A stretch of DNA of 37,442 nt from the IMG/VR virus record IMGVR_UViG_3300007735_000692, positions 1 to 37,442 of that record. One strand, given 5' to 3'. A model generated the notes under the pieces. The model did no database searches. It was not told where the DNA came from and saw only the letters and a program-made list of their open reading frames with translations. Of this stretch, positions 1-28,257 are shown piece after piece; the stretch's first letter is position 1; each line of letters begins with the position of its first letter. The stretch is from a virus. A program made the translations under genes and the position numbers.

Positions 1-325
<325 letters not shown>

Positions 326-346
326 GGCGTGTTGTCTCCGGTGTGG

Positions 347-571
347 TTACTGGGCGGTAATCTGGCAGTAGTCGATGCAGTCATAACGATGGCCGACTGC
401 CATATATAAAGACTTTTCGGACGCGCGGAAAATCGGACGGCCAGCGTCTGCAAATTGCTGAGCAGTTTTCGGGGTTACTTTAGTAACACGCAACGGGGTG
501 CCGACATAGATAGTCTTACCGGATGCCAGCGCGTCAGTAATCCACGACAGAATTTCGGCGGGGTTTTTCAT
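347..571 (-). CDS. Small early protein, unknown function (74 aa)
   Basis: This is a short leftward gene between the zinc-binding gene and the 568-771 gene. Its ATG overlaps the upstream stop codon (ATGA), which supports translational coupling and a real start. The protein is soluble-looking, with no membrane segment. A central Lys-Thr-Ile-Tyr-Val stretch suggests beta strands. I do not recognise a family. Its position in an early operon of small genes suggests host take-over or a regulatory role, but this is inference only. Confidence 0.65.
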   Translation of the reverse strand: MKNPAEILSWITDALASGKTIYVGTPLRVTKVTPKTAQQFADAGRPIFRASEKSLYMAVGHRYDCIDYCQITAQ

Positions 572-771
572 GAGCGCACCGCCTTGGCGATACCGTTAAA
601 GGCACGCCAGTAGTCCATAGCGTTGCGATAGTCATCGCACCGGATCCGGTCGTATACCTCACCGGCATCGGTGCGAATCGTTACCGTAATCATGCCATTG
701 TGATATTGCCGTTCAAAGGATGTTGTCCAACCGTTACGGTGTGACTTGAATTTATCGCGAATTGTTTTCAT
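568..771 (-). CDS. Small early protein, unknown function (67 aa)
   Basis: This is the first gene of the leftward operon after the divergent control region. The start at 771 is preceded by CTGGAG (about 8 bases away), a good Shine-Dalgarno site. The protein is basic at the N-terminus with an alternating polar/hydrophobic middle, consistent with a small alpha/beta fold. No motif is recognised. Being promoter-proximal to the candidate promoter at 807-833, it should be among the first products made. Confidence 0.65.
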   Translation of the reverse strand: MKTIRDKFKSHRNGWTTSFERQYHNGMITVTIRTDAGEVYDRIRCDDYRNAMDYWRAFNGIAKAVRS

Positions 772-806
772 GTCAGTAACTCCAGGCGTGTTGTCGATGT
801 GTGCAG

Positions 807-833
807 ATTAAACGCGCGCGCGTAGGCTGTCAA
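807..833 (-). promoter_or_regulatory. Candidate sigma70-like promoter for leftward early operon
   Basis: On the minus strand there is a perfect TTGACA -35 box (plus positions 828-833). It is followed after 15 bases by TTTAAT (807-812), or after 17 bases by the weaker TAATCT. The -10 lies about 35 bases upstream of the ATG at 771. The spacer is a run of alternating C and G. The location is right for driving the small-gene operon. The spacing ambiguity lowers confidence. Confidence 0.5.
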
Positions 834-839
834 GCATTT

Positions 840-869
840 CTTTACATAGACGCTTGTCAAAATGTAAAG
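840..869. promoter_or_regulatory. Candidate operator: 8-bp inverted repeat CTTTACAT/ATGTAAAG
   Basis: CTTTACAT (840-847) and its exact complement ATGTAAAG (862-869) are separated by 14 bases, just upstream of the -35 box of the leftward promoter. The spacer contains a second TTGACA-like box on the minus strand. The centre-to-centre distance of about 22 bases (two helical turns) suits a dimeric regulator. The regulator is unknown. Confidence 0.35.
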
Positions 870-884
870 CATTTTCGGGCAAGG

Positions 885-1284
885 TTGTGGGCATTGTGGG
901 TCAGATTGTGGGTCACGGAATCGGGGAGAATTGCCCACGCTCAAATGCCTGAAAACATAGGGCGGGATATGACTTGTGGGCATTGTGGGTCATCTCTTTA
1001 TCTTTAAGTTAAGAAAGAAATACTACTGTATAAACATACAGCTCGTACCAGGTGGAGCGCATTTCGTTGGAGCCGCTCCGATTTTTTTTCCGTGACCATT
1101 TGACCCACATGACCCACAAATCGCCCATGCCCCCCGATTTGTGGGCAATGTGGGCAATCGAAAACAAATTGCCCACATTGCCCACAACTGCAACGGCCAA
1201 AGAATTGCCCACATGACCCACACGCTAGGCGGCTAGCAGCCGGGGGGCGCGTAGCCGTTGCCCACATTGCCCACGCTGCCCACC
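885..1284. repeat. Array of 9-bp TTGCCCACA / TGTGGGCAA doublets (iteron-like)
   Basis: Seven exact TGTGGG sites (starting 886, 895, 907, 975, 984, 1140, 1149) and seven CCCACA sites (1104, 1113, 1172, 1181, 1208, 1217, 1261) lie within 400 bases, plus near copies at 934, 1270 and 1279. Most occur as pairs spaced exactly 9 bases apart. The 19-base unit at 885-903 is repeated at 974-992. Orientation flips along the array. Such clustered short repeats in a divergent gene-free region are typical of replication origins, packaging sites or multi-site operators; the sequence does not decide which. Confidence 0.85.
1139..1187. repeat. Perfect 19-bp inverted repeat within the 9-bp array
   Basis: The left arm (1139-1157) and right arm (1169-1187) are exact reverse complements over 19 bases, with an 11-base A-rich loop. 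Each arm is one head-to-tail doublet of the 9-bp unit. As DNA it could extrude as a cruciform or be bound by a dimer of dimers. As RNA it would be a very stable hairpin in either direction. It lacks a downstream T-run, so it is not a typical terminator. Confidence 0.85.
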
Positions 1285-1420
1285 GCGCCCAGGCTGGATG
1301 CAAATGATTCTCGTTTGCAACTGAGGGGGTGGGCCGGCCCGCGCGTGGCCTGTACCTGGTACGGAGGGGTTGCACAAAATTTTTTTTATTTTTTAACCAC
1401 CAACCCGTAAGCCAAAACCT

Positions 1421-1620
1421 TATGCTAATCTTGCGTGGCGATGTCTGACGTGATGCGCACGTAGCGACCGGGAGGTAGCTGAAGGGGTTATGAGCCCCAC
1501 CATCTAAGGCAATCTCCGCCCCGGCACACAGGCCACACGGTTGTTGTGGATTGCGGCCTCCCGGCAGGACAATCCTGCACATCGCTTGTCTTTTGCTTAC
1601 ATGAAAGGTAGTGTTGCGAC
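1421..1620 (+). ncRNA. Candidate structured RNA / leader upstream of terminase genes
   Basis: Bases 1438-1585 hold nested complementary arms. P1 is GCGATGT (1438-1444) with ACATCGC (1579-1585). There is a hairpin ACGTG/CACGT (1448-1462). P2 is CCGGGAGG (1468-1475) with CCTCCCGG (1557-1564), enclosing a hairpin GGGGTT/AGCCCC (1484-1498) and P4 GCAATC (1509-1514) with GATTGC (1549-1554), which itself encloses a CACA/TGTG stem. The last hairpin is CAGGA/TCCTG (1565-1577). All fit one non-crossing closed junction. A -10-like TATGCT at 1421-1426 would start RNA near P1, but no clear -35 is seen. I do not recognise a known RNA class. It could be an independent RNA, a terminase leader, or a DNA packaging structure. 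Confidence 0.45.
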
Positions 1621-2097
1621 ATGTTCAAATCGCTTCCGCACGCGCCACGGCAACTGAACGCTACTGAGGCGCGGCTACAGGCTATTTATGACGCAGCGGC
1701 CCTCGGGCTAAGAGGTGATAGTCTTGCCCTAGCGGCGGGGCTGTTGCCGGCGGAGTACCGGCGGTTGTGTCAGATGGACCCGCTCGCTGAGATGGCGGAG
1801 GCCAAAGGGCGTGCAGATAGTGAGTTTGAGGCCGCGAACCAACTGCGTGACGCGGCTCGCAATGGCGATTCAAAGGCTTCTTTGGCCATCCTTCAGCATG
1901 TGCACGGCTGGGTGGCGAAGCAACAGGTACAGGTCGATGTCAAGCAGCAGATCAGCGTCATCGCCGCGCTGCAAGAGGCAGAATCTCGCGTCATTGAAGG
2001 CCGAGTATTGCCGGATGAACCGGCTGCATTGACCCGCGCGCCCACCACGCTCGCTACCCGAGCCCTGACGGCAGAATATGCAACTTCCGATATATAG
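1621..2097 (+). CDS. terS: Terminase small subunit
   Basis: It recognises phage DNA and starts packaging with the large subunit. The 158-residue protein is mostly helical. Residues 12-50 look like a helix-turn-helix (an Ala-rich segment ending in AEYRRL), followed by a long amphipathic helical region and a Gly-Trp near residue 98. This is the layout of small terminases that bind DNA through the N-terminus and oligomerise through the middle. The assignment rests mainly on position, with its end overlapping the large terminase start by 20 bases. AAAGG at 1603-1607 is a rather distant ribosome site. The C-terminal 40 residues are low-complexity and may contact the large subunit. Confidence 0.75.
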   Translation: MFKSLPHAPRQLNATEARLQAIYDAAALGLRGDSLALAAGLLPAEYRRLCQMDPLAEMAEAKGRADSEFEAANQLRDAARNGDSKASLAILQHVHGWVAKQQVQVDVKQQISVIAALQEAESRVIEGRVLPDEPAALTRAPTTLATRALTAEYATSDI

Positions 2098-3607
2098 CCC
2101 CGAGGACGAGCAGCTACTGATGACTCGGCTGTGGTCGCCGAGCGTCAAGGACGACCCCGAGGCGTTCGTGCTGTTTGCGTTCCCGTGGGGGCAGAAGGGC
2201 ACGCCGCTGGAGAACTTCAGCGGGCCGCGCAAGTGGCAGCGCGAGGTGCTGCGCAAGGTAGCCGCTCACATCGCCCGCAACAAGAACGCGACGGGGTACG
2301 ACGTGCTGCGCATGGCGACGGCCTCGGGGCGCGGCATCGGTAAGTCGGCGTTGGTGTCTTGGCTGATCCTGTGGATGCTATCAACGCGCATAGGCTCGAC
2401 TATCATCGTGTCGGCTAACTCGGAGGCCCAGCTACGCTCGGTCACTTGGGCCGAGGTGACTAAGTGGCTCTCGCTGCTGCTCAACAGTCATTGGTTTGAG
2501 GTGTCGGCGACGCGGGTGATGCCGGCCAAGTGGCTCGCGGAGATCGTCGAACGCGACCTGAAGAAGGGCACGCGGTACTGGTCGGTTGAGGGGCGGCTGT
2601 GGTCGGAGGAGAACCCCGACGCGTACGCCGGTGTCCACAACTTCGACGGTGTGATGGTCATATTCGACGAAGCGTCGGGTATACCGGACCCCATCTGGTC
2701 GGTGACGGCGGGCTTCTTTACGGAGAACACGCCTAATCGCTTCTGGCTCGCCTTCAGTAACCCACGACGCAACGAGGGGTATTTTTATGAGTGTTTCAAC
2801 GCGAAAAGGGAATTCTGGCAAACGCAAAACATCGACGCGCGCCAAGTTGAAGATACGGATAAAGCCGTCTACGAGCAGATCATCGCCGAGTATGGAGCAG
2901 ATAGTAGCCAGGCTAAAGTCGAGGTCTACGGAGAGTTCCCTTCCGACGGAGACGACCAGTTCATTGCTCCGCGAATTGTGGACGAGGCTGTGGCACGCGC
3001 CCGCTACAAGGATGAAACAGCTCCGCGAGTCATTGGGGTGGACCCCGCACGATCCGGCGCCGACAGCACCGTCATCGTCGTCCGACAAGGGCGCGACATC
3101 GTAGCAATCAAGCGCTACCGGGGCGAGGACACTATGGCCACCGTCGGGCGCGTCATCGACGCGATCGAGGAGTACAACCCGGCGCTCACGGTCATTGACG
3201 AGGGCGGGCTCGGCTATGGCATACTTGACCGGCTGAAAGAGCAGAGGTATAAGGTTCGTGGGGTAAACTTTGGCTGGAAGGCCAAGAACCCCGTGATGTG
3301 GGGCAACAAGCGCGCCGAGATGTGGGGCGACATGCGGGAATGGCTACGCACGGCGAGCATCCCGTCTGATCGGCTACTCAAGTCGGACCTGTGCGGGCCA
3401 CACGTCAAGCCTAACTCGTCGGGGACAATCTTCTTGGAGGGCAAGAAGGAGATGAAGGCCAGAGGTCAAGCGTCGCCGGATGCGGCAGACGCGCTCGCCG
3501 TCACCTTCGCCTACCCGCTCGCAAGCCGTGAGGCACGCGACGCGCCAAGACGAGTCGTCTCCCGCCAGGGTGGCAACGGCATGGCAAGCAGTTGGATGGG
3601 AGCCTGA
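2078..3607 (+). CDS. terL: Terminase large subunit (ATPase-nuclease)
   Basis: This is the packaging motor that pumps DNA into the prohead and cuts it. The N-terminal ATPase has a Walker A motif GRGIGKSA (residues 84-91) and a Walker B segment VMVIFDEAS (about 192-200). The C-terminal RNase H-like nuclease shows VIGVDPARSGAD (318-329), DEGG (374-377) and SPDAADALAVTF (466-477), which supply the metal-binding acidic residues. A length of 509 residues is normal for the family. The gene overlaps terS by 20 bases in another frame, suggesting coupled translation. Confidence 0.95.
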   Translation: MQLPIYSPEDEQLLMTRLWSPSVKDDPEAFVLFAFPWGQKGTPLENFSGPRKWQREVLRKVAAHIARNKNATGYDVLRMATASGRGIGKSALVSWLILWMLSTRIGSTIIVSANSEAQLRSVTWAEVTKWLSLLLNSHWFEVSATRVMPAKWLAEIVERDLKKGTRYWSVEGRLWSEENPDAYAGVHNFDGVMVIFDEASGIPDPIWSVTAGFFTENTPNRFWLAFSNPRRNEGYFYECFNAKREFWQTQNIDARQVEDTDKAVYEQIIAEYGADSSQAKVEVYGEFPSDGDDQFIAPRIVDEAVARARYKDETAPRVIGVDPARSGADSTVIVVRQGRDIVAIKRYRGEDTMATVGRVIDAIEEYNPALTVIDEGGLGYGILDRLKEQRYKVRGVNFGWKAKNPVMWGNKRAEMWGDMREWLRTASIPSDRLLKSDLCGPHVKPNSSGTIFLEGKKEMKARGQASPDAADALAVTFAYPLASREARDAPRRVVSRQGGNGMASSWMGA

Positions 3608-3870
3608 TGGCACGCAAGTCGGTCAGTCTGTCGGTGGGTCGGGGGGAGAAACAGCCTGTTTCTAAGGGCGCGGGCTTGACGGCTAAGGGCCGAGCCAAGT
3701 ACAACCGCGAGACGGGCAGTAAGCTCAAGGCGCCAGCGCCCAGCCCCAAGACTAAGGCGGACGCGGGGCGTAAAAAGTCGTTCTGTGCGCGCATGAAGGG
3801 CGTAGTGGCCAAGGCCAAGGGGCCGGCTGAACGAGCAAAGGCGTCGCTTAGACGCTGGAAGTGTGGCTAA
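3607..3870 (+). CDS. Small Lys-rich phage protein (DUF6321-like)
   Basis: The protein has 87 residues. The start ATG shares its A with the terL stop (TGATG), which favours 3607 over the in-frame ATG 15 bases upstream. It is strongly basic, with a central KGAGLTAKGRAKYNRETGS segment and a C-terminal SFCARM...KASLRRWKC pattern. I associate this with the DUF6321 family of small phage proteins, from memory and not by search. It is the first of four tightly coupled small basic genes between terminase and portal. Nucleic-acid binding, or a virion role next to DNA, is plausible but unproven. Confidence 0.8.
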   Translation: MARKSVSLSVGRGEKQPVSKGAGLTAKGRAKYNRETGSKLKAPAPSPKTKADAGRKKSFCARMKGVVAKAKGPAERAKASLRRWKCG

Positions 3871-4025
3871 TGGCTAGTAATAAAGGTCTTTACGCGAACA
3901 TTAACGCTAAGCGGGCTCGCATTGCAGCCGGTAGTGGTGAGAAGATGCGCACACCGGGTAGTAAGGGGGCGCCGACCAATAAGGCGTTCCGTCAATCGGC
4001 CAAGACGGCCAAAAAGAGGAAGTAA
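3870..4025 (+). CDS. Small basic phage protein (51 aa)
   Basis: The ATG at 3870 overlaps the previous stop (TAATG), and the frame stays open to TAA at 4023-4025. The protein is very basic and Gly/Lys/Ala-rich, with an IAAGSGEKMRTPGSKGAPT core and a KKRK C-terminus. Similar short proteins recur beside terminases in aquatic phages, to my recollection. Function is unknown. The tight coupling to both neighbours makes it very likely to be translated. Confidence 0.75.
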   Translation: MASNKGLYANINAKRARIAAGSGEKMRTPGSKGAPTNKAFRQSAKTAKKRK

Positions 4026-4027
4026 TC

Positions 4028-4222
4028 ATGGCATACGGCCCTGTTGGCGTTTCTCGACGCGCTACTATTGGCAACATGTTGGCTCAGCCGTCAGGCGCGC
4101 CGGCTGCCCAGCAGCCTCGTATGCCGACGCCGCGTCGGCGCGTGTCTGAGGACATCATCCGCACGACGACGAACTTTCGCCCCTCGCCCATGCCGATGCG
4201 CGACCGGGGGAGACCCCGCTAA
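4028..4222 (+). CDS. Small Pro/Arg-rich protein, unknown function (64 aa)
   Basis: It starts two bases after the previous stop with AGAGGAAG just upstream, a good ribosome site. The protein is rich in Pro, Arg and Ala and looks largely disordered, ending in Arg-Gly-Arg-Pro-Arg. Its stop overlaps the next ATG by one base. It belongs to the cluster of small basic genes between terminase and portal. There is no recognised domain. Confidence 0.65.
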   Translation: MAYGPVGVSRRATIGNMLAQPSGAPAAQQPRMPTPRRRVSEDIIRTTTNFRPSPMPMRDRGRPR

Positions 4223-4362
4223 TGCCGCTCGTTAAGTCCGCAACCAAAGGTGCGTTCCGCAAGAACATTCGCGCCGAAGTAAATGCGGGTAAGCCTGTCA
4301 AGCAGGCCGTGGCGATCGCGTATGCGGTCAAGCGTAAGGCACAAGGTAAGAAGCGCAAATAA
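4222..4362 (+). CDS. Small Lys-rich protein (46 aa, DUF6496-like)
   Basis: The ATG overlaps the previous stop (TAATG), and the stop overlaps the portal ATG in the same way. It encodes a 46-residue basic protein with the pattern F-R-K-N-I-R-x-E-V-x-A-G-K-P-x-K-Q-A-V-A-I-A and a Lys/Arg C-terminus. This resembles the short DUF6496-type phage proteins that I recall beside portals. The repeated Gln-Ala-Val-Ala-Ile-Ala helix is characteristic. Function is unknown. Confidence 0.75.
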   Translation: MPLVKSATKGAFRKNIRAEVNAGKPVKQAVAIAYAVKRKAQGKKRK

Positions 4363-6530
4363 TGGCAAAAGACCCAACAGGGCTTAGGGGCGCCGCTCGC
4401 GTCGCCAACACGCCGACCAACCGGGGCAAAGCCTCCCGCGACCCAGCCGATGTACTGGCCACGGCGCGTTCGCGCCTTACTATGGCCCTCTCGGCGTACT
4501 CTGATAGCCGCGAAGACGAGCTGGATGACCTGCGTTTCATGGCAGGCTCGCCGGACAATCAGTGGCAGTGGCCCCAAGACGTGTTGGCGACGCGCGGCTC
4601 GGTGCAAGGACAGACGGTCAATGCGCGTCCGTGCCTGACCATCAACAAGCTGCCGCAGCACGTGCGGCAAGTGACCAACGATCAGCGGCAGAACCGGCCA
4701 TCTGGCAAGGTCATCCCCGTTGATGACAAGGCGGACATTGAGGTCGCTGAGATATTTGACGGAATTGTCCGTCATATTGAGTACATTTCGGATGCGGATG
4801 TAGCCTACGACACCGCGTGCGACAACCAGGTCACTTACGGCGAAGGGTATTTCCGCATTTTGACGGAATACTGCGACGAAAATACGTTCGATCAAGACCT
4901 TCGCATAGGCCGTATCCGAAATAGCTTCAGTGTGTACATGGACCCGACCATCCAAGACCCTTGTGGCGCGGATGCGGAGTGGTGTTTCATCACCGAGGAC
5001 ATCCCGAAAGCCGATTTTGAGCGTATGTACCCCGATTCAGAGCCGATTTCGTCGGTTTTGCAGCGCGGTGTAGGCGATCAGGCGCTGTCGCAGTGGATTA
5101 ACGAGAATACGGTCCGTATTGCGGAGTATTTCTACAAAGAACACACCCGCGAGACGCTGAATCTGTATGCCGGCAACCAAACGGCGTTTGACGGGTCGCC
5201 CGAAGCGCAAGAGCTGGAGATGCTCGGCCTTCAGCCGATCCGCAAGCGCGAAGTTGACGTAAAACGCGTCAAATGGGTCAAGACTAACGGCTACGAAATT
5301 CTTGAAGAACAGGAATGGCTGGGTAAATGGATTCCGGTCATTCGTGTAATCGGTAACGAGTTTGAAGTTGAAGGCCGCATGTACGTGTCGGGACTTGTGC
5401 GTAACGCCAAGGACGCCCAGCGCATGTACAACTACTGGGTGTCGCAGGAAGCAGAGATGCTGGCCTTGGCGCCCAAGGCGCCGTTCATCGGCTATGGCGG
5501 CCAGTTTGAAGGCTACGAACAGCAATGGAAGACGGCCAACACGACAAACTGGCCGTACCTAGAAGTTAATCCCGACGTGACAGACGGTCAGGGCGCAGTC
5601 CTGCCGCTGCCACAACGTGCCCCACCGCCGCTTGCCCAGACGGGCTTGATCCAGGCGAAGATGGGCGCTGCCGACGACATCAAGGCCGCGACCGGCCAGT
5701 ACGATGCCAGCCTCGGTATGCGGTCCAATGAGCGCACGGGTCGGGCCATCTTGGCGCGTGAACGGCAAGGCGACACAGGCACTTATCATTTTGTAGACAA
5801 CCTAGCTCGTGCTATTCGCTATGGGACGCGCCAACTCGTTGATTTGATCCCGAAGATTTACGATACCCAGCGTATCGCGCGAATCGTCGGCATCGACGGA
5901 GAGACCGCAACGGTCAAAATCAACCCGATGCAGGCTGAGCCTGTCCGTCGGTTGATGAACGAGACGGGCATCGTGATTGAGAAGATTTACAACCCGTCTG
6001 TCGGTAAGTACGACGTTGCGGTCACGACCGGTCCGTCCTACGCGACCAAGCGCCAAGAGGCGATGGACGCGATGGGGCAGATTTTGCAGGCCAACCCGAA
6101 CTTGTGGCAGGTTGCAGGCGACTTGTTCGTCAAGAACATGGACTGGCCGGGCGCGCAAGAAATCAGCAAACGGCTCCAGAAGGTCATTGATCCGAAGCTC
6201 TTGGCGGACGAGGAAGACCCGGCGCTCCAGGCTGCCCAGCAGCAGATGGAGGTTATGGGGCAAGAAATGCAGATGATGCAAGAGATGCTCCAGCGCGTGC
6301 AGCAGTCTATGGAAGCCCGCGAGGTGCAAATCAAGGAGTTTGAGGCAGAGGTCAAGGCGTATAGCGCTGAGACCGATCGCATCAAGGCGGTCGAAAGCGG
6401 CTTGAATGAGCAGCAGATTCAGGACATCATAATGGGCACTTTGGCCGGTATGATGAACAACGGCGAGCTTGTGTCGCCAACCGCCCAACGGACAATGCCT
6501 GAAATGGGCACGGAGTTACCGCCGCAATGA
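4362..6530 (+). CDS. Portal protein (P22 gp1-like)
   Basis: It forms the dodecameric ring at the head vertex through which DNA enters and leaves and to which the tail attaches. The length of 722 residues is close to the P22 portal (725). The early region has the QWPQDV...RPCLTINKLPQHVRQVTNDQRQNRP pattern typical of P22-type portals, then an IEYISDADVAYDTACDNQVTYGEGYFR block. The last 120 residues are Gln/Met/Glu-rich and predicted helical, like the long barrel helices of P22 portal. The start overlaps the preceding stop by one base; the stop overlaps the next gene by four. Confidence 0.95.
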   Translation: MAKDPTGLRGAARVANTPTNRGKASRDPADVLATARSRLTMALSAYSDSREDELDDLRFMAGSPDNQWQWPQDVLATRGSVQGQTVNARPCLTINKLPQHVRQVTNDQRQNRPSGKVIPVDDKADIEVAEIFDGIVRHIEYISDADVAYDTACDNQVTYGEGYFRILTEYCDENTFDQDLRIGRIRNSFSVYMDPTIQDPCGADAEWCFITEDIPKADFERMYPDSEPISSVLQRGVGDQALSQWINENTVRIAEYFYKEHTRETLNLYAGNQTAFDGSPEAQELEMLGLQPIRKREVDVKRVKWVKTNGYEILEEQEWLGKWIPVIRVIGNEFEVEGRMYVSGLVRNAKDAQRMYNYWVSQEAEMLALAPKAPFIGYGGQFEGYEQQWKTANTTNWPYLEVNPDVTDGQGAVLPLPQRAPPPLAQTGLIQAKMGAADDIKAATGQYDASLGMRSNERTGRAILARERQGDTGTYHFVDNLARAIRYGTRQLVDLIPKIYDTQRIARIVGIDGETATVKINPMQAEPVRRLMNETGIVIEKIYNPSVGKYDVAVTTGPSYATKRQEAMDAMGQILQANPNLWQVAGDLFVKNMDWPGAQEISKRLQKVIDPKLLADEEDPALQAAQQQMEVMGQEMQMMQEMLQRVQQSMEAREVQIKEFEAEVKAYSAETDRIKAVESGLNEQQIQDIIMGTLAGMMNNGELVSPTAQRTMPEMGTELPPQ

Positions 6531-6889
6531 AACCAGCAGATTTTGTCGGGCACCTATTCCTAGCGCGGGATGTCACCCATTCGGTGCATCTCAATACGCG
6601 CAGCTATGCTAAGCACAAAGCTCTGGGATCGTTTTACGACAAGGTAATAGATTTGGCGGACTCGTTCGCGGAGGCTTATCAGGGTCGCCACGGCTTGATT
6701 GGCCCGATTACGTTGCAATCGGCCAAGAAAACCGGCAACGTAACTGAGTTTTTGCAGGAGTCTTTGGCCGAAATTGAAGCCAATCGCTACAAGTTTTGTG
6801 ACGAAGACGAAACAGCAATTCAGAACATTATTGACGAAATTGTGGCTCTTTATCTGAGCACTTTGTATAAATTGCGCTTTTTAGCGTGA
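6527..6889 (+). CDS. DUF5856-type helical protein (Dps/ferritin-like)
   Basis: This 120-residue all-helical protein begins in a 4-base overlap with the portal gene (ATGA). The segment around residues 10-55 (HLFLARDVTHSVHLNT...HKALGSFYDKVIDLADSFAEAYQGRHG) matches the four-helix-bundle family that I know as DUF5856, in which spaced His, Asp and Glu residues recall Dps/ferritin folds. No biochemical role is established to my knowledge. Its place among head genes suggests a virion-associated or assembly function. Confidence 0.7.
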   Translation: MKPADFVGHLFLARDVTHSVHLNTRSYAKHKALGSFYDKVIDLADSFAEAYQGRHGLIGPITLQSAKKTGNVTEFLQESLAEIEANRYKFCDEDETAIQNIIDEIVALYLSTLYKLRFLA

Positions 6890-6898
6890 GGGTAAAGC

Positions 6899-7201
6899 AT
6901 GGAACTTCTTAATCCGATGGCCGATGCCGTATACCCCGGTCGTACGGTAGCGTACACGGGCACCGCCGGCTCTACGGCGACTTGGCAGTCCGGCCCGCAG
7001 GGCGTAGTGGTATGGTGTACGTCAGCCGCGTACGTGGTCGTGGGTGAGGGCGTGACGGCAACAACTTCCAGCACTCCGATCCCGGCCAACACGCCAATTC
7101 CGTTCATCGTGCCGCAGGGCACTGGCGCGCCCTGGCGAGTGAGTGCCATTCGCGTGACGGCTGACGGCGACTTGTACGCCAAGCCCATCAACATCCGATG
7201 A
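6899..7201 (+). CDS. Putative minor structural protein (100 aa)
   Basis: The gene is preceded by a GAGGGT ribosome site. The protein is Gly/Thr/Val-rich with a strongly beta-prone sequence, consistent with a small jelly-roll or Ig-like fold used for head decoration. It ends in an ATGA overlap with the next gene. There is no recognised domain. A structural role is inferred from composition and from position between portal and scaffold. Confidence 0.65.
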   Translation: MELLNPMADAVYPGRTVAYTGTAGSTATWQSGPQGVVVWCTSAAYVVVGEGVTATTSSTPIPANTPIPFIVPQGTGAPWRVSAIRVTADGDLYAKPINIR

Positions 7202-7359
7202 GCTTCGGAGTTGGCTTGCGAAATGCGGTCGGGCTAGGGCTCGGCGGCATTGCTTCGTTTTTGACGGGCTACGCAAGCGACGTGATATTTGGCAATTTGG
7301 AAACCGAAAACGGCGAAAACTTGGTGCAAGAGAACGGCGGCTTGCTGCTGCTGGAGTAA
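7198..7359 (+). CDS. Small Gly-rich protein (53 aa)
   Basis: It starts inside the previous stop (ATGA) and ends at TAA 7357-7359. The first 33 residues are Gly/Leu/Ala-rich and could form one membrane-active helix. The C-terminus carries the repeated motif Glu-Asn-Gly (ENGENLVQENGG) and ends in LLLLE. The Gln-Glu-Asn-Gly-Gly-Leu ending occurs in many phage structural proteins. Function is unknown; coupling to neighbours supports expression. Confidence 0.6.
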   Translation: MSFGVGLRNAVGLGLGGIASFLTGYASDVIFGNLETENGENLVQENGGLLLLE

Positions 7360-7362
7360 GAC

Positions 7363-8871
7363 ATGGCAATTATCAAGATTTCTGAACTTCCTGTTGCGGA
7401 TTCGCCGGTATCTCCGTCGGATGTAGCGCCGTTTTTGCAAAACGGCGTAACTAAAAAAGCGTCTATTGACCAGTTTGGGTTTTTGCCCGCCGGCACTAAC
7501 GCGGTAACGCGCACTATTCAGGATAAACTGCGCGACGTTGTTAGCGTCAAGGACTTTGGCGCGGTGGGCGATGGCGTAACGGATGATACCGCTGCGATTC
7601 AAGCAGCTATCAACGCCGCTGCAACTTTTGGTGTTACAGGAAATTTTGGAGCCGCTGTCTATTTTCCTTCAGGCCGATACATAGTTTCTAGCACAATCAG
7701 TCTGCCAGGCTCGCAATACGTCTCGTTGTTTGGTACAGGCAGATCGTCAGTTATAAGCTGGAATGGCGCAAATTCCGATGTTATGTTCTCGATGGACAAC
7801 GGCACTGACGGTTCTCAAATTTTTATTGAAAAGTTGCAGTTTTTAAATCCAGTTAACAACAACTCTGTAACGGCATTTGAGTTTTGCAAAACACCTAGCA
7901 ACGCTGTCGTTAACGTAACGGTACGCCAAAACCTTTTTGCAAATTTTAATATCGCTATCGACATGAATCAGGAAACTGATCAGATGTTAATAGACGATAA
8001 CTATTTTTTAACATACTACAGCGCTGGCGTACGTTTAACTGGGTATGGCGCTAACATTTACGTCAAAAACAACCATTTTCGGGACGGAAACGACGGGTCT
8101 TACGCGGTAATTACAAGCAATGCCGTAAACATTGTCATTGACACAAACACCGTTCAGTCCGCAAACAACGGAATGAAAGGGTTTTATCTTGCGGACACCA
8201 AAGTCTTTAAGGTAGTCAATACGTACTTTGAAGTTGCTGCTGGGGGCGTTGCCGGCGATGGGCCGTTTTTGACAATGTTTGAAGCAAGCGATGGCTACGT
8301 AGCGGATAACTTTACAACCGGCGCGTGCGGCGCTTCAGTTATGGTGGTGGACACCAACTGCCGCGTTATTACGTTTGGCAATCATCGCCACAGCGTTAGC
8401 GGCGGAACGCCGACACGAATTTTGGAAGTTGATGGATCGCCGGTTGGCATTAACGTAATCGGCACGTTTGACACTAACGGTGCCGGTATTTTGCCGTTTT
8501 CAGGCTCTGCGGTAGACTACTTTTTAGGCTTGGGTAACAGCGGCGAAAACGCTTCTTTTACCACGCCGTTAATCTATTCAAAACAATCCATTTCTCAGTA
8601 TAGAGATTTGAAGAATGTTGCCGGGTCGACTACGGATGATCTCATAAATTTTGGCTCGCAAGTCGGCGCATGGCTTGTTTACGCAACACAAGTTACGGAA
8701 AACTATTGGTCAGTATCTTTTGTTCATAGTAACGGCACCACGGCTGCAATCACCAACACATATCAAAGCAACGCCAACATGGTTTTAGGTGTTACTGCAA
8801 ACAAACTTCAAGTAGCAAACGGCATAACGGGCACTAGAACCATAAAATTTGCGGCGATGCGTATTTTTTAA
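7363..8871 (+). CDS. Tailspike with pectate-lyase-like beta-helix
   Basis: This is a host-receptor protein, probably binding or cleaving surface polysaccharide. Residues 1-40 form a short N-terminal module (KISELPVADSPVSPSDVAPF) also seen in two other proteins here and probably for virion attachment. Then comes VKDFGAVGDGVTDDTAAIQAA (about 62-82), the classic start of the pectate_lyase_3 right-handed beta-helix. Asn-rich coils follow to about residue 400, and then a terminal beta domain. GGAG lies 7 bases before the start. The gene is visibly more AT-rich than its neighbours. Catalytic residues cannot be assigned from sequence alone. Confidence 0.85.
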   Translation: MAIIKISELPVADSPVSPSDVAPFLQNGVTKKASIDQFGFLPAGTNAVTRTIQDKLRDVVSVKDFGAVGDGVTDDTAAIQAAINAAATFGVTGNFGAAVYFPSGRYIVSSTISLPGSQYVSLFGTGRSSVISWNGANSDVMFSMDNGTDGSQIFIEKLQFLNPVNNNSVTAFEFCKTPSNAVVNVTVRQNLFANFNIAIDMNQETDQMLIDDNYFLTYYSAGVRLTGYGANIYVKNNHFRDGNDGSYAVITSNAVNIVIDTNTVQSANNGMKGFYLADTKVFKVVNTYFEVAAGGVAGDGPFLTMFEASDGYVADNFTTGACGASVMVVDTNCRVITFGNHRHSVSGGTPTRILEVDGSPVGINVIGTFDTNGAGILPFSGSAVDYFLGLGNSGENASFTTPLIYSKQSISQYRDLKNVAGSTTDDLINFGSQVGAWLVYATQVTENYWSVSFVHSNGTTAAITNTYQSNANMVLGVTANKLQVANGITGTRTIKFAAMRIF

Positions 8872-8882
8872 GGAGTTGAACT

Positions 8883-9425
8883 ATGGCTGACAAAAAAATT
8901 AGTCAATTAAACAACGCCACGACCCCACTGGCGGGCACCGAAGTATTGCCCATTGTTCAAAGCAGCAGCACTGTTAAAACAACAATATCTGACGTTCGTT
9001 CCGGCGGAGTTTTGCAAGTTGTATCCGCTAATTACAGCACGGCAACAACGTCTTCGAGTAGCGCATACGCTGATACCGGATTAACCGTAACAATCACACC
9101 AAAGTTTACCACTAGCAAAATACTTGTTTTTGTTTCGCAAAACGGAGTATATAAAAACGCTGTTGGATCAAGTTTTAGCAGCGTAAATTTAAGACTGGTG
9201 CGCGGTGCTACGGAACTCGCTGTTTTTGGACCGGGAGTTGCATACACCGGAACTGGAATAGAGAACAATATCGGCTCTTGCTCTCTTAGCTATTTAGATA
9301 CGCCAAACACTACTAACGCAACCACGTATAAAACACAGTTTGCATCAGACCAAAACGTAAATGCCGTGTCGGTGCAAACTAATTCAGCAGCGTCATCAAT
9401 AACTGTAATGGAAATTGCTGCTTAA
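8883..9425 (+). CDS. Putative fibre/structural protein with shared N-terminal module (180 aa)
   Basis: A strong AGGAGTTGA ribosome site precedes the ATG. The N-terminus (KKISQLNNATTPLAGTEVLPIVQ) matches the module at the start of the tailspike just upstream and of the 14013 gene. The rest is Ser/Thr-rich, beta-prone and resembles a C1q/TNF-like jelly-roll. It shares the lower GC of the tailspike, so the two look like one cassette. A likely accessory fibre or receptor-binding protein, by inference. Confidence 0.7.
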   Translation: MADKKISQLNNATTPLAGTEVLPIVQSSSTVKTTISDVRSGGVLQVVSANYSTATTSSSSAYADTGLTVTITPKFTTSKILVFVSQNGVYKNAVGSSFSSVNLRLVRGATELAVFGPGVAYTGTGIENNIGSCSLSYLDTPNTTNATTYKTQFASDQNVNAVSVQTNSAASSITVMEIAA

Positions 9426-9476
9426 CTTACTTTTACCGTACTGGCCCGGTTGACCAGGGATTCATTAGGAATCACA

Positions 9477-10253
9477 ATGTCTGAAAATGAAGTAGTAGCG
9501 GAACAAGTACCCGCGCCGGAACCGGAAGCTACGGCAGCACCGGAACCCGAAGTTGTTGCGCAAGAGGCAACTCAGCCGGAGGAAAAGCCTGCCAAGACGT
9601 TCTCCCAAGAGGAGCTCGACGCGCTGGTAGGCAAGAGGCTTGCACGGGAACGTCGCAAGTGGGAACGAGAGCAAGCGCTAAAAGCGCCTGAGTCCCAAGC
9701 TCAGACGCCCGCCACGCTGCCTGACCGGGACATCGACCCCGACGCCTACGCGGATGCTTTGGCAACCCGCAAGGCCGAGGAGTTGCTGGCCAAACGGGAG
9801 GCAGACCGGCAGCAGCGCGAGCTGTTGATGGCCTATAAGGAACGTGAAGAAGCGGCTTTTGACAAGTACGACGACTTTGAACAGGTCGTGTACAACCGAT
9901 CGCTGCCAATCACGAACGTGATGGCCGAGACGATTCAGGCTTCGGATGTTGGCCCCGATGTAGCATACTACTTAGGTTCCAACCCCCGCGAAGCTGAACG
10001 TATTTCCCGTTTGTCGCCCTACCTACAAGCCAAGGAGATTGGTAAGATTGAGGTCAAATTGACCGACAATCCGCCAGTTAAACGAACAACCAACGCGCCC
10101 CCGCCGATTAAGCCTGTGACGGCTAAAACCGTAGGCGCGCCGGCCCGAGACACAACGGACCCACGCTCAGTCAAGGACATGAGCACGTCGGAGTGGATCG
10201 AAGCCGAGCGTCTGAGGCAGATTAAGCAGTGGGAAGCGCGACGTACCCGCTAA
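9477..10253 (+). CDS. Scaffolding protein
   Basis: It guides coat assembly into proheads and leaves before or during packaging. I chose the ATG at 9477, which has AGGA 8 bases upstream, rather than the ATG 27 bases further up. The 258-residue product has a Pro/Glu/Ala-rich acidic N-terminus, the segment FSQEELDALVGKRLARERRKWERE (common in phage scaffolds), a long charged coiled-coil middle, and a basic C-terminus. In P22 the basic scaffold C-terminus binds coat. Its position directly before the coat gene fits. Confidence 0.85.
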   Translation: MSENEVVAEQVPAPEPEATAAPEPEVVAQEATQPEEKPAKTFSQEELDALVGKRLARERRKWEREQALKAPESQAQTPATLPDRDIDPDAYADALATRKAEELLAKREADRQQRELLMAYKEREEAAFDKYDDFEQVVYNRSLPITNVMAETIQASDVGPDVAYYLGSNPREAERISRLSPYLQAKEIGKIEVKLTDNPPVKRTTNAPPPIKPVTAKTVGAPARDTTDPRSVKDMSTSEWIEAERLRQIKQWEARRTR

Positions 10254-10274
10254 CTTCTTTTTTGGAGATTTATT

Positions 10275-11486
10275 GTGGCTAATACACTTCTTACTATTGA
10301 CATGATTACGCGGAAGGCTCTGGAAATCCTGGAGAACAACCTCGTAATCACCCGCAACGTGAACCGTCAGTACGACGACAGCTTCGCTGTCGAAGGTGCC
10401 AAGATTGGTTCGACCCTCCGCATCCGTCTGCCGGATCGCGCTCTTGTGACCGACGGCGCTGCGCTTCAGGTTCAGGACGACAACGAGCAGTTCACCACGC
10501 TCACCGTCGCCTCCCAGAAGCACATCGGCGTCAACTTCACCAGCGCCGAAATGGCCCTTCAGTTGGACGATTTTGCCGAGCGCGTGCTCAAGCCGCGTAT
10601 CAGCCAGCTCGCCTCCAGCATCGACGCCGACGTGGCCAGCTCGTACAAGAACGTGTTTCAGTCGGTCGGTACGCCTGGCGTCACCCCCGGCACCTCGCTC
10701 GTTCTGTTGCAGGCGCAGCAGAAGCTGAACGAAGCTGCCGCTGGTATGGCCCCGCGCTACGCCACCGTCAACCCGGCGGCCAACGCTGGCCTCGTCGAAG
10801 GCATGAAGGGCTTGTTCAACCCGGTTGATTCAATCAGCCGCCAGTTCAAGAACGGCATGATGGGCGAAGGCATCCTCGGCTACGATGAGATCAACATGTC
10901 TCAGTCGATCAAGCAGCACACCAACGGCTCGGCCTCGCGCGCGGACACCCCGATCGTGAAGACCACGCTTGTCAACGGTGCCAGCAAGCTGACGCTCGAC
11001 AACGTGACCGATGGTCTCACCCTCGTCCCCGGCGACGTGTTCACCATCGCTGGCGTGTATGCGGTCAACCCGCAGACCCGCGAGTCCACTGGTGCGCTCC
11101 AGCAGTTCGTGGTGCAGAACAGCGTGACCTCGGCCTCGACCGAGTTCGTTGATGTTCAGTTCCTGCCGGCTGTGTACGGCCCGACGCACGCCCTCGCCAC
11201 GGTCAGCAAGCTGCCGGCCGCCAACGATGTCGTGACCTACGTGGGTGCCGCTTCTGGCCAGTACGCTCAGAACCTTGTGTACCACAAGGATGCGATTACG
11301 TTTGCCACCGCCGACCTCCTGCTCCCGCAGGGCGTTGACATGGCGTCGCGTCAGGTTCACAACGGCATCTCCATGCGCGTTGTCCGTCAGTACGACATCA
11401 ACAACGACCGTATGCCCTGCCGTATCGACGTGCTGTATGGCTACTCGGTGATCCGCCCGCAGATGGCCTGCCGCATCTGGGGCTAA
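10275..11486 (+). CDS. Major capsid protein (P22 gp5-like coat)
   Basis: This is the main head shell protein, with an HK97-type fold expected for P22 coat relatives. It is 403 residues, near the P22 coat length of 430. The N-terminus (ITRKALEILENNLVITRNVNRQYDD) and the following KIGSTLRIRLPDR strand are typical of the P22 coat family. The start is GTG, with GGAG 7 bases upstream. Codon use is strongly biased to C-ending codons compared with the neighbours, as expected for the most abundant product. Confidence 0.95.
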   Translation: MANTLLTIDMITRKALEILENNLVITRNVNRQYDDSFAVEGAKIGSTLRIRLPDRALVTDGAALQVQDDNEQFTTLTVASQKHIGVNFTSAEMALQLDDFAERVLKPRISQLASSIDADVASSYKNVFQSVGTPGVTPGTSLVLLQAQQKLNEAAAGMAPRYATVNPAANAGLVEGMKGLFNPVDSISRQFKNGMMGEGILGYDEINMSQSIKQHTNGSASRADTPIVKTTLVNGASKLTLDNVTDGLTLVPGDVFTIAGVYAVNPQTRESTGALQQFVVQNSVTSASTEFVDVQFLPAVYGPTHALATVSKLPAANDVVTYVGAASGQYAQNLVYHKDAITFATADLLLPQGVDMASRQVHNGISMRVVRQYDINNDRMPCRIDVLYGYSVIRPQMACRIWG

Positions 11487-11516
11487 TTTTTAACCTTATT
11501 CACGGAGTAACTAAAC

Positions 11517-11918
11517 ATGGCACTTCCTAACGGTACTAGTGGTTATCAGGTTGGCGCTGGCAATGCTGCCGAGCCGATTCTGTTTGTGCAGGGCGCCCCT
11601 ACGGCCCTGACGGCAGCCGCAACGGCGACCCCGGCGCAGCTTGCGAACGGTCTTTTTACCTTCAACGGCACTGCGGGCAACCTTACCCTTCCGACGGTTG
11701 CTGACCTTGAAGCCTACGTGTCGTCCGCCCAACGGGTTGACGCGGCGTTTGACTTCTTCGTCGTCAACATTGATGCGGCGGGTTCGGATGCGATCACGGT
11801 TGCGGTCGGTACGGGTTGGACGCTGGTTGGTGCGGGGGCGGTCGCGGCGGCGGCGTCAGGTCACTTCCGTGCTCGCAAAACTGGCGACACGACTTGGACT
11901 TGCTACCGCATCTCGTAA
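11517..11918 (+). CDS. Putative head decoration/minor capsid protein (133 aa)
   Basis: It follows the coat gene with a CGGAG ribosome site. It is Ala/Gly/Thr-rich with a beta-sandwich character, ending in a GHFRARKTGDTTW segment typical of small phage surface proteins. There is no named family I can assign with confidence. A strong terminator-like hairpin directly after its stop means it is probably co-expressed at high level with coat, which fits decoration of the shell (inference). Confidence 0.65.
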   Translation: MALPNGTSGYQVGAGNAAEPILFVQGAPTALTAAATATPAQLANGLFTFNGTAGNLTLPTVADLEAYVSSAQRVDAAFDFFVVNIDAAGSDAITVAVGTGWTLVGAGAVAAAASGHFRARKTGDTTWTCYRIS

Positions 11919-11925
11919 TGGCAAC

Positions 11926-11960
11926 GCCCCCTACGGGTAACACCGTAGGGGGCACTCTTT
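11926..11960 (+). terminator. Hairpin terminator/attenuator after coat module
   Basis: A perfect 11-bp stem, GCCCCCTACGG (11926-11936) with CCGTAGGGGGC (11943-11953), has a 6-base loop and is followed by ACTCTTT. The short T-run suggests partial rho-independent termination or 3'-end protection of coat mRNA. Downstream genes have no evident new promoter, so readthrough is expected. Confidence 0.75.
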
Positions 11961-11974
11961 AAGAGGACTTATCT

Positions 11975-12295
11975 ATGCCAAATACACAGGCAGTTGGTGT
12001 TGCTTTCTCCGACCCCGAGCTTAATGGTGCCGTCATTGGCACCTCTGGTGGTACGGTCGGCTTTTACGGCACGACCCCGGTAGCCAAGGGCGCAGCGCTT
12101 ACGACGCAATTGACGACGATTACGTCTACGGCCCCCACCACGCCGGACTATGCGATTCAAAATTTGACGCAGACGACTCCGTTTGGCTTTGTCACGCGTG
12201 ACGAAGGCAACTCGGTGCTGTCGGTGATTGCAAATCTTCAGACTCGCGTTAGCCAGCTTGAGGCTCGTTTGCAGGCTTACGGACTGTTGCCGTAA
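11975..12295 (+). CDS. Putative head fibre/structural protein (106 aa)
   Basis: The gene begins after the hairpin with AAGAGGA as ribosome site. The first 70 residues are Gly/Thr-rich and beta-prone. The last 25 residues (SVIANLQTRVSQLEARLQAYG) form a heptad-patterned coiled coil, suggesting trimerisation. Similar short proteins follow coat genes in related phages, from memory. A minor head protein is the best guess. Confidence 0.6.
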   Translation: MPNTQAVGVAFSDPELNGAVIGTSGGTVGFYGTTPVAKGAALTTQLTTITSTAPTTPDYAIQNLTQTTPFGFVTRDEGNSVLSVIANLQTRVSQLEARLQAYGLLP

Positions 12296-12297
12296 CT

Positions 12298-12492
12298 ATG
12301 AACATATATCTTCGCCACCCGGTTCACGGACTAAAAATCGCCATCTCGGATGTAGAGGCGGCTATGGACCATGAGCACGGTTGGGAGGAGTATGATCCTT
12401 TGGAACCGGCGGCGCGGCAGGGTGAGCCTGCTGCGTCGCCGGAGCCAAACCAGTTGAAGCGTCGCCGCAAGGCAGTAGCGGCTGAAGCCTAG
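12298..12492 (+). CDS. Small protein, unknown function (64 aa)
   Basis: It starts two bases after the preceding stop. The N-terminus reads as a short beta strand (IYLRHPVHGLKIAI), followed by an acidic helix, a Trp-Glu-Glu-Tyr motif, and a Lys/Arg-rich C-terminus. Small proteins beginning this way recur between coat and gp4-like genes in phages, to my recollection. It could be a head-completion factor, but nothing in the sequence proves it. Confidence 0.6.
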   Translation: MNIYLRHPVHGLKIAISDVEAAMDHEHGWEEYDPLEPAARQGEPAASPEPNQLKRRRKAVAAEA

Positions 12493-12503
12493 AGGGCTAC
12501 ACA

Positions 12504-13217
12504 ATGGCTGTAACAGCCCAAAGCCTTATCAACAAATCGTTGCGATTGTTGGGCGTATTGGCGTCTGGCGAAACGACGACGGCTGATGAAGCGCAAGATT
12601 CGCTCTACAGCCTGAACTCTATCATCGACTCGTTTTCGGCCAACCCGCAGTATTACTTCTGCACGCAGGCCGAGCAGTTTACGCTGGTCAACGGGCAGAG
12701 CACGTACACAATCGGCAACGATCCCGATACGTCACCTGCCGCGAACTGGATTGCAGCGCGGCCTATTCGCATCGTCGGCGCGTTTGTGCGTGTATCCAAT
12801 GTGGATACGCCTTTGGCGATGATTACCGAGCAGTATTGGACCAACATTGCCAATAAGGCTGCAACGGGCACGCCGACCAAGTTGTTGTATCGACCCAACA
12901 TCCCGTACGGGCAGGTGGTGCTATACCCCACACCCAATGCGGCGGTGTCGATCTTTATTAAGGCTGAACGTATGATTCAGCCGTACGCCACGCTAGTTAC
13001 GACGCAGTACCTGCCGCCGGGCTACCAGCGTTTGCTGGAGCTGTCGTTGGCGATGGAGCTAGCGCCGGAGTACGGCTCACAGGTCAAGCCTGAGATTATC
13101 GCTAATTTGCGTGCTGACCTTGACAGCCTGATCCGCACGAACATTCAGCCGTTGCCGGTTAACAAGACCGATAACGTGCCGAATACGAACACGACGTTTA
13201 ACATGCCCCCGATTTAG
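12504..13217 (+). CDS. Tail accessory factor, P22 gp4-like (copy 1)
   Basis: In P22, gp4 binds under the portal after packaging, seals DNA in and builds the tail platform. This 237-residue protein has the family signature: an N-terminal helix pair INKSLRLLGV...EAQDSLYSLNSIIDSF, an FTLVNGQSTYTIG strand, and a C-terminal LPPGYQRLLELSLAMELAPEY helix. It is longer than P22 gp4 (166). The next gene is a recognisable paralogue. GAGGGC precedes the start. Confidence 0.85.
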   Translation: MAVTAQSLINKSLRLLGVLASGETTTADEAQDSLYSLNSIIDSFSANPQYYFCTQAEQFTLVNGQSTYTIGNDPDTSPAANWIAARPIRIVGAFVRVSNVDTPLAMITEQYWTNIANKAATGTPTKLLYRPNIPYGQVVLYPTPNAAVSIFIKAERMIQPYATLVTTQYLPPGYQRLLELSLAMELAPEYGSQVKPEIIANLRADLDSLIRTNIQPLPVNKTDNVPNTNTTFNMPPI

Positions 13218-13224
13218 GTGAACC

Positions 13225-14010
13225 ATGGCAACTACCCGTGAGCTTTTGAGTGGTGCGCATCGTTTGCTGGGGCTTGTGAACTCAGGCAACGTGCTGCCTG
13301 AAGCCGTGTACCAAGACAACCTTGTCGCGCTCAACCAGATGATTGATAGTTGGAGCACCGAACGTTTGGCGGTGTTCTGTACGCAAGATCAGACGTACTA
13401 TTGGGAAGCCGGCAACCGTATCCGCACGCTTGGTCCTACTGGCGACTTTGTATACATCCTTGCTAACCAGTCAGACACCCCGATTGTCACGCAAGGCGAC
13501 GACTACATCGGCGTCGATGACGCGACCACGCAGCGCCCTATTTTGCTTGACGATTCTACGTATTTCCGCGATCCAACGACTAACGTGTCGTATGGCATCA
13601 AATTTATCAATCAGTTGCAGTACAACAACATTGCGGTTAAAACGGTGCAAAGCACTTACCCGCAAGTAATGTTTGTTAACAACACGTTCCCTAACATTAC
13701 GCTGTCGGTATATCCAGTACCCAACCGTATGTTGGAGTTTCACTTTATTTCGGTGCAGCCTTTGGCTAATCCGACAACGCTTGAGACTGATTTGGCGTTT
13801 CCGCCAGGCTATTTGCGGGCGTTTCGATACAATTTGGCGCTTGAGCTTGCGCCGGAGTTCAACGTGGAGCCCCCGACCGAAGTGCGTCGGGTGGCGATGT
13901 ACAGCAAACGCAATCTCAAACGCATCAACAACCCGCACGATCTCATGGCTATGCCGTACAGCCTCATGGCGCGTCGCAACCGTTACAACATTTACGCCGG
14001 GAATTTCTAA
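13225..14010 (+). CDS. Tail accessory factor, P22 gp4-like (copy 2)
   Basis: This is a 261-residue paralogue of the preceding gene. It repeats the same landmarks in order: an LLSGAHRLLGLV helix, LVALNQMIDSWS, an Arg-Thr-Leu-Gly strand end, and FPPGYLRAFRYNLALELAPEF near the C-terminus. The two copies have diverged strongly and probably occupy different positions in the neck or tail. It lies head-to-tail with copy 1 with 7 bases between them. Confidence 0.8.
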   Translation: MATTRELLSGAHRLLGLVNSGNVLPEAVYQDNLVALNQMIDSWSTERLAVFCTQDQTYYWEAGNRIRTLGPTGDFVYILANQSDTPIVTQGDDYIGVDDATTQRPILLDDSTYFRDPTTNVSYGIKFINQLQYNNIAVKTVQSTYPQVMFVNNTFPNITLSVYPVPNRMLEFHFISVQPLANPTTLETDLAFPPGYLRAFRYNLALELAPEFNVEPPTEVRRVAMYSKRNLKRINNPHDLMAMPYSLMARRNRYNIYAGNF

Positions 14011-14012
14011 CT

Positions 14013-14693: not shown

Positions 14694-14696
14694 ACC

Positions 14697-18392: not shown

Positions 18393-18400
18393 GGTGACAT

Positions 18401-19949: not shown

Positions 19950-19952
19950 GTC

Positions 19953-23668: not shown

Positions 23669-23678
23669 GGAGACAATT

Positions 23679-25383: not shown

Positions 25384-25386
25384 ATG

Positions 25387-28200: not shown

Positions 28201-28211
28201 GCCTCCATACT

Positions 28212-28240: not shown

Positions 28241-28257
28241 ATTGTACGATTTAGGCT
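28229..28257 (+). promoter_or_regulatory. Candidate rightward promoter for replication operon
   Basis: A perfect TTGACA (28229-28234), a 17-base spacer, and TAGGCT (28252-28257, weak -10) stand 29 bases before the DUF2800 start. The two divergent promoters share the 28229-28240 bases, so occupancy of one should exclude the other. Confidence 0.5.

Follow-up and report, generated by a model that had tools for sequence, protein, structure and literature searches.

A new family of structured RNA at the head of phage late operons

Dozens of related phage sequences, and some quite different ones, share an element that is real and conserved and almost certainly represents a new family of structured RNA. 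In the window, i.e. the whole stretch of 37,442 bases of viral DNA that was analysed, the element is about 150 bases long, and its homologues (113-208 nt; 65 distinct rows) have one common fold. The family is considered new because no match was found in Rfam and no account of such an element was found in the open-licence literature, including passages of PMC9378689, PMC3088659 and PMC2864571. The window carries a direct terminal repeat of 127 bases (1-127 and 37316-37442), which would fit a complete phage contig assembled as a circle; the database itself gives no completeness for it.

The common fold and its covariation

In the common fold P1 closes the element, P2, P5 and P6 are hairpins, and the long-range stem P3 is formed around the variable hairpin P4, with a probable pseudoknot (Table 1). 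The main alignment (A2), consisting of 66 sources picked by hand (65 distinct rows), was fitted to a covariance model with the same structure. Its 39 pairs are formed in 96.1% of the cells, and double-sided changes occur in 27 of them. The covariation score was 0.404, compared with 0.157 after shuffling (none of the 500 shuffles scored as high) and with at most 0.083 in controls slid by 1-3 columns. Four of five measures were never matched by the 500 shuffles, and the fifth (further pair types) was not above them. In an independent MAFFT alignment (A1), which comprised 38 of the 51 distinct sequences from a regular-expression search (one of the 13 not used was L142, which has no first P3 strand), double changes were found in 23 of 35 pairs and the score was 0.368 vs. 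0.162 shuffled. Mutual information was evaluated for column pairs that were at least 90% complementary and varied on both sides; the ten top pairs all fall in P1, P2, P3, P5 or P6. Some of the lower-ranking pairs join different stems, which we read as shared ancestry.

Table 1. Coordinates of the element, its parts and the neighbouring features in the window
Feature	Position	Strand	Support or description
Structured RNA element	1438-1585	+	65 distinct homologue rows; covariation score 0.404 (shuffled 0.157)
Pa, putative -10-like TAATCT, TGC before it	1426-1431	+	ends 6 nt before P1
P1, 7 bp	1438-1444/1579-1585	+	double changes in 6 of 7 pairs
P2 hairpin, 5 bp, loop RUGCG	1448-1462 (1448-1452/1458-1462)	+	double changes in 3 of 5 pairs; 99.7% of cells paired
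P3, CCGGG/CCCGG	1468-1472/1520-1524	+	double changes in 5 of 5 pairs; 99.7% of cells paired
Probable pseudoknot strand AGG (partner CCU, 1557-1559)	1473-1475	+	63 rows with letters
P4, variable hairpin	1484-1498 (1484-1488/1494-1498)	+	double changes in 5 of 5 pairs
Conserved UAAGGCA, unpaired in the model	1505-1511	+	consensus; missing from L206 and the 113-nt forms
Probable pseudoknot strand CCGC (partner GCGG, 1553-1556)	1516-1519	+	99.2% of cells paired; no double change
Junction CACACAGG, highly conserved	1525-1532	+	consensus of aligned homologues
P5 hairpin, window loop CGGUUGU	1533-1549 (1533-1537/1545-1549)	+	double changes in 4 of 5 pairs; 100% of cells paired
GCGGCCU, 3' strand of probable pseudoknot	1553-1559	+	aligned rows
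P6 hairpin, abuts P1	1564-1578 (1564-1568/1574-1578)	+	double changes in 3 of 5 pairs; 100% of cells paired
Pb, putative promoter TTGTCT-17-TAGTGT	1586-1614	+	placed to start at the AUG of the ORF at 1621
First late ORF, 158 aa, "TerS" by position only	1621-2097	+	no Pfam or PHROG match
Terminase large subunit (TerL)	2078-3607	+	PF03237, PHROG 2
P22-like portal protein	4362-6530	+	PF16510, E 8.8e-178

Folding of the window sequence alone gave -61.1 kcal/mol (z -2.09; 6 of 200 shuffles were as good), which is modestly better than chance and suggestive only; the case rests on the homologues. G-U cells outnumber A-C cells by 36 to 19 in all stems and by 15 to 9 without P4, and this small excess lends weak support to the + strand as the RNA. 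Protein-coding sequence is out, as no frame counted from the element end is open in all 65 elements (the best in 41 of them) and the element lengths are spread over all three classes modulo 3.

The first-pass annotation of this DNA had described the region as a phage structured RNA of no known class, which agrees with the covarying fold in 65 rows and with the lack of any Rfam match over the element. It had also set a check beforehand, namely a search for covarying pairs in homologues; these were found for the element as a whole but not for two of the proposed stems. The closing stem and the hairpins at 1448-1462 and 1484-1498 are kept by compensatory changes in the homologues, as is the hairpin placed at 1565-1577, whose extent is 1564-1578. 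On the other hand, the stems proposed at 1468-1475/1557-1564 and 1509-1514/1549-1554 together scored 0.055 vs. 0.056 shuffled, with a double change in a single one of 14 pairs in 38 homologues. In the former, the bases CCGGG pair instead with CCCGG (P3), with double changes in all five pairs among the 65 rows. Its AGG/CCU part (1473-1475/1557-1559) may be real as a component of the pseudoknot, and its remaining pairs were abandoned, as was the latter stem. P5, which is strongly supported, was missing from the earlier list.

The pseudoknot would be formed across P3, with GCGGCCU probably pairing with CCGC and AGG. Its support is thin because its bases hardly vary: AGG/CCU is invariant in 63 rows except for one compensated change of A-U to C-G (in L149, judging by the aligned rows). 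Two of the four CCGC/GCGG pairs cannot form in one row, which speaks against the pseudoknot, and AAGGC/GCCU is an alternative partner for the pseudoknot strand that covariation cannot separate from it. A further sign in favour of the pseudoknot is that in the 113-nt forms (L226 and L264) a six-base complement, GCAGCG/CGCUGC, appears by eye to be possible at the same site. RNAalifold extends P3 by GG/CC, a point that covariation does not decide. P4 cells are paired in 78.4% of cases in the covariance-model alignment and in 58.2% in the MAFFT alignment. The invariance of the junction CACACAGG is partly due to selection, because CACACAG was also part of the search patterns.

Several natural variants of the fold were observed. 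The first P3 strand is missing from L142:4532-4671 and UAAGGCA from L206:3084-3229, while the P5 loop carries insertions in L156 and L293. The 7-bp P1 with the abutting P6 resembles acceptor/T-arm geometry, yet most P6 loops are about 5 nt. ARAGORN identified no tRNA or tmRNA genes in the window, in agreement with the first-pass reading that such features are absent.

Distribution of the element and its genome context

Homologues were collected by protein searches of IMG/VR with TerL and with TerS (best 80 loci each), and many of these loci bear the element, whose aligned segments are about 70-99% identical. Pattern scans gave further loci, among the matches listed, which contain the pattern letters by selection. 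A covariance model (R1) built from 38 distinct sequences matched all 66 sources picked for A2 and 73 of 79 newly fetched sources, the unmatched ones being L275 (the sole viral locus of that set without a match) and five genome contigs. In a further set of 75 sources, most of them selected because blastn had given no match, R1 matched 8; the pattern matches L155, L190 and L203 had no R1 match. A second model (R2), on 71 sources, yielded L304-L306, the weak L041 (12.7 bits) and L078 (9.4 bits), and L288. The last of these (20.9 bits) is one of five matches obtained in one exact-pattern scan of genome contigs, none of which exceeded 12 bits with R1; it lies inside an acyl-CoA-ligase-like ORF and was regarded as chance.

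No match to the elements of the window and of L236 was found by blastn among 50,697 phage records. For the L226 element the search gave 124 records of Microbacterium phages, none better than E 0.2; these were judged to be chance matches and, among the 20 listed, lie inside an HTH gene. Clear homologues were thus found neither in phage records nor in bacterial genomes by these searches, whose sensitivity is limited because they were carried out with blastn and patterns.

A search of Rfam, which the first-pass annotation had proposed, returned nothing over the element. None of the 4227 families of Rfam 15 matched the window at the gathering score, and permissive thresholds gave one sub-gathering match at 1350-1381 on the minus strand (E 1.1). 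Two permissive matches were obtained in eight homologue loci, both outside the element. No Rfam ribozyme matched in the window or in the homologue loci, in accord with the earlier statement that there is no hammerhead core here; the ribozyme families, hammerhead included, were presumably all present in the library searched.

The TerL of the window is 72% identical to that of phage DSL-LC05, and the 158-aa ORF resembles a hypothetical protein encoded by MW202483 (62% identity over 82%). In the greedy longest-ORF list, + strand ORFs continue to about 26.4 kb. The element lies upstream of, and on the same strand as, a relative of the window's TerS or TerL in all 62 loci where one was detectable (6 of 68 rows had none) and in 25 of 25 loci of a second set, in which 11 of 36 rows were without a window-type TerS/TerL relative. 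Among these 11, L281 and L262 resemble window-type forms by sequence; L197, L243, L261, L264, L226 and L282 and, separately, L236, L263 and L268 are other phages.

The operons headed by the element include three large terminases that are dissimilar or only distant relatives of one another. In BLASTP the window TerL matched those of L197 (E 0.11) and L263 (E 0.10) without significance, while the TerLs of L197 and L263, assigned to PHROG 38 and others, are distant relatives of each other (27% across an alignment of 252 columns, E 6e-25). The term "dissimilar" refers to the pairwise sequence level only, because the window and L197 TerLs share Pfam Terminase_6N. The first ORF after the element also varies, being TerS, a 63-76-aa ORF, a 186-aa protein (PHROG label ferredoxin) or one of several 53-60-aa ORFs. 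L197 has a TerS-like gene on the upstream side of the element, with opposite-strand genes in between, and in L236, L263 and L268 the element stands directly after a gene, inside the operon.

Ahead of the element, iteron-like direct and inverted repeats (TTGTGGGC.., TTGCCCACATTGCCCACA, TGACCCACA) occupy positions 882-1275 of the window and are followed by a T-rich tract; they could constitute a replication origin or a regulatory region. Similar-looking repeats and T tracts were seen by eye ahead of TerS in relatives without the element.

Promoter-like sites and loss of the element

A TATGCT at 1421-1426, previously taken for a -10 sequence, is indeed present, but TAATCT (Pa) is better placed for this role. 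Of the 59 distinct flanks upstream of the element, 52 have a TANNNT ending 6 or 7 nt before P1 (null from shuffling 0.076), a count which, like the other promoter counts given here, is not made of independent cases because the sequences are related by descent. It is preceded by TGN in 25 of the 52. The figure refers to TANNNT at a fixed position; when the best-scoring hexamer was taken, its first T not being required, 45 of 59 were placed at 6-7 nt. From this spacing the transcript is predicted to start at P1, so that its own promoter, Pa, would probably direct initiation at or next to 1438.

A second site of this type, resembling Pb, lies at a distance of exactly 6 nt upstream of the first ATG in 33 of the 36 distinct linkers of at least 31 nt. 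At 6-8 nt it occurred in none of the 17 distinct linkers of 21 nt or less, in which the ORF begins just after P1. One further linker, out of 54 distinct ones, had no called ORF; the start was taken as the first ATG with an ORF of at least 45 aa, which may be wrong in some cases. Where an ORF was called (53 distinct linkers), its start lies -2 to 43 nt from the element end in 46 cases, and the ORF can directly adjoin the element (L247, L195, L245). By eye, neither a terminator nor a ribosome-binding site common to the linkers was seen, and a Shine-Dalgarno-like run was noticed in several short ones (L149, L197, L261, L243).

In relatives without the element, TANNNT lies 6-8 nt before the TerS ATG in 21 of 31 distinct flanks (null 0.068; 48 loci with short flanks were set aside, and two of the 21 belong to the deletion lineage). 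Taken with Pb, this suggests that late mRNAs are leaderless in this phage group.

Only the last part of the element matches in L006, L007, L088, L090, L091 and L098. The flanks of L006, L091 and L098 show the loss of Pa and of most of the element, with the 3' end of the element and Pb still present. The L009 contig, which starts inside the element and keeps 105 matching bases, has the same identities to the window as L006 (TerS 88.2%, TerL 96.9%), and therefore the loss looks recent. No other copy of the element was present in the 38,260-base record behind L091. The element was lost in the G001 lineage. The existence of close relatives without it indicates that it can be lost or replaced. It was absent from 14 of 22 chosen records, a proportion that has no meaning because most of the negatives were chosen for having no element near TerS.

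Possible functions and comparison with known RNAs

Our tentative suggestion is that the element acts in cis as a nascent-RNA leader of the late operon, most likely by a put-like read-through mechanism involving the host RNA polymerase. The element would be transcribed from Pa as the first part of the late operon, which holds the packaging and structural genes; it would fold as the first bases leave RNA polymerase and would change the fate of the late transcript in cis. In its likeliest form this would be processive read-through brought about by contact with the host RNA polymerase, as with the put RNA of HK022. Action in cis on the late transcript is favoured because the position of the element is kept while the genes differ, and its location directly after a gene in L236, L263 and L268 would be tolerable for a nascent-RNA element. 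The first-pass idea of a terminase leader is consistent with the position, since the element heads an operon with terminase genes, but its occurrence before other first genes and dissimilar terminases speaks against the idea.

No candidate for a partner gene was found, as no window ORF of at least 60 aa was present in all seven bearing and none of the seven lacking genomes. The reverse search (queries G001, G016 and G008) gave one G016 ORF found in four lacking and no bearing genomes; because many of the comparison rows track kinship, a partner gene might be absent from the tested set only. Terminator-like sites on both strands showed no excess, with 12 vs. 26.0 expected in 1-20000 and 26 vs. 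21.1 expected (sd 4.4) in 17443-37442. This lack of an excess of sites to act on speaks against the proposal, as do the close relatives without the element and the small size of the G-U excess. In window-type phages Pb follows the element, and transcripts from Pb would bypass it; with regard to the put-like form, the element is roughly double the length of put RNA, and its fold does not resemble the two stem-loops of put.

According to PMC9378689, the HK022 put RNA lies immediately after a promoter in the case of putL and some 270 nt from the start in that of putR, is about 70 nt long with two stem-loops, belongs to early operons, and acts on RNA polymerase without the need for a dedicated protein factor. 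The element would start at the predicted +1 (in L236 it directly follows a small gene) and has no partner gene that we could find. Unlike put, it measures 113-208 nt, has a multi-helix junction and a probable pseudoknot, and heads a late operon. By analogy, put is the nearest known RNA in logic; in size and fold the element is not a put RNA. Antitermination by put works through the beta' zinc-binding domain of RNA polymerase.

The JUMPstart element is located at the head of long operons and helps processive transcription. In PMC2864571, JUMPstart is given with RF01707, and the c4 antisense RNA and other Rfam phage RNAs appear as structured phage RNAs. In contrast to JUMPstart and other long-operon leaders, the element matches no Rfam family, and it differs from c4 and the Rfam phage RNAs in having no match to them at either gathering or permissive thresholds.

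It is conceivable, though rather doubtful, that the family represents a class of RNA-only regulators, i.e. a pseudoknotted RNA of 113-208 nt at the 5' end of the late transcript that would serve as a portable late-gene switch without any phage protein, either by binding the host RNA polymerase or by self-cleavage. In that case the 113-nt form would define the core. The novelty concerns the RNA family, and its functional kind could prove to be a variant of put-like leaders. Without a detectable relative in Rfam, the family occurs in phages whose packaging modules are dissimilar; at least one close lineage has lost it, and a form of 113 nt is found in nature. Its natural deletions and compensatory mutants make up a ready comparative set for asking whether RNA alone can control late transcription outside lambdoid phages.

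An independent small RNA, encoded beside the late promoter and with a trans effect on some factor of the host or the phage, possibly as a packaging RNA, is unlikely but would account for part of the data. The RNA would be freed from the Pa transcript, and late mRNA would come mainly from Pb, which fits the element's own promoter-like Pa, the separate leaderless promoter-like Pb in 33 of 36 longer linkers, the compact closed fold with conserved loops and the loss in the G001 lineage. However, a trans-acting RNA would not need its place at the head of the late operon, which is kept although the genes differ; moreover, the 17 short linkers have no Pb-like site at 6-8 nt and their ORF follows P1 directly, and by eye no terminator is common to the linkers. 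The analogy with the phi29 pRNA drawn at first pass gained no positive evidence. Both are structured phage RNAs, but the element accompanies dissimilar TerLs, is missing in close relatives and has no Rfam match. The phi29 pRNA probably also has a different fold. The dissimilar TerLs and differing first genes argue against a motor-specific pRNA and against a TerS leader.

Control of the first late gene by a translational or metabolite-sensing (riboswitch-like) leader, or by a binding site for a late protein, seems decidedly unlikely. The first ORF does lie -2 to 43 nt from the element end in 46 of 53 linkers and can abut it, and the strongly conserved junctions resemble those of aptamers. Nevertheless, that ORF is not constant, in window-type phages it probably has its own leaderless start, and by eye the linkers share no ribosome-binding site, terminator or platform for sequestering a ribosome-binding site. 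Autoregulation by TerS is unlikely because L197 has its TerS-like gene elsewhere. Less probable again is a self-cleaving ribozyme or RNase-processed leader, which would remove itself so that the late mRNA becomes short or leaderless. An apparently leaderless start is common among relatives without the element (21 of 31 distinct flanks), and the ORF of short-linker forms begins at the element end, so that cleavage there would restore the leaderless state; the small, probably pseudoknotted conserved core is also in keeping with a ribozyme. Against this stand the lack of an Rfam ribozyme match and of any indicated cleavage site, and leaderless translation is not required, since several short linkers show by eye a Shine-Dalgarno-like run. 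Finally, inverted repeats of a DNA-level signal (a pac or cos site, an origin or a cruciform) might merely resemble RNA stems. The element adjoins terminase genes and has iteron-like repeats just upstream, but we consider such a signal highly improbable: a long-range stem around a variable hairpin, a probable pseudoknot and asymmetric conserved loops would better fit a folded strand, the same element occurs with dissimilar TerLs, and relatives without it appear by eye to keep similar upstream repeats.

Some minor features of the packaging region were recorded as well. In one lineage a short ORF (L139:3614-3820 and relatives), mostly of 67-68 aa and marked by the motif CRSCFW or CRTCFW, separates the element from TerS; that of L139 matched nothing in Pfam or PHROG. 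Next to TerL, L197:1895-2128 on the minus strand encodes a 77-aa protein assigned to PHROG 14910, a group of unknown function, and proteins similar to it by eye are encoded in L236:2640-3035 and L282:6233-6487. In several loci 1-1.5 kb of extra sequence between TerS and TerL interrupts the packaging cluster, and the ORF at L282:5809-6279 looks by eye like an HNH-type endonuclease.
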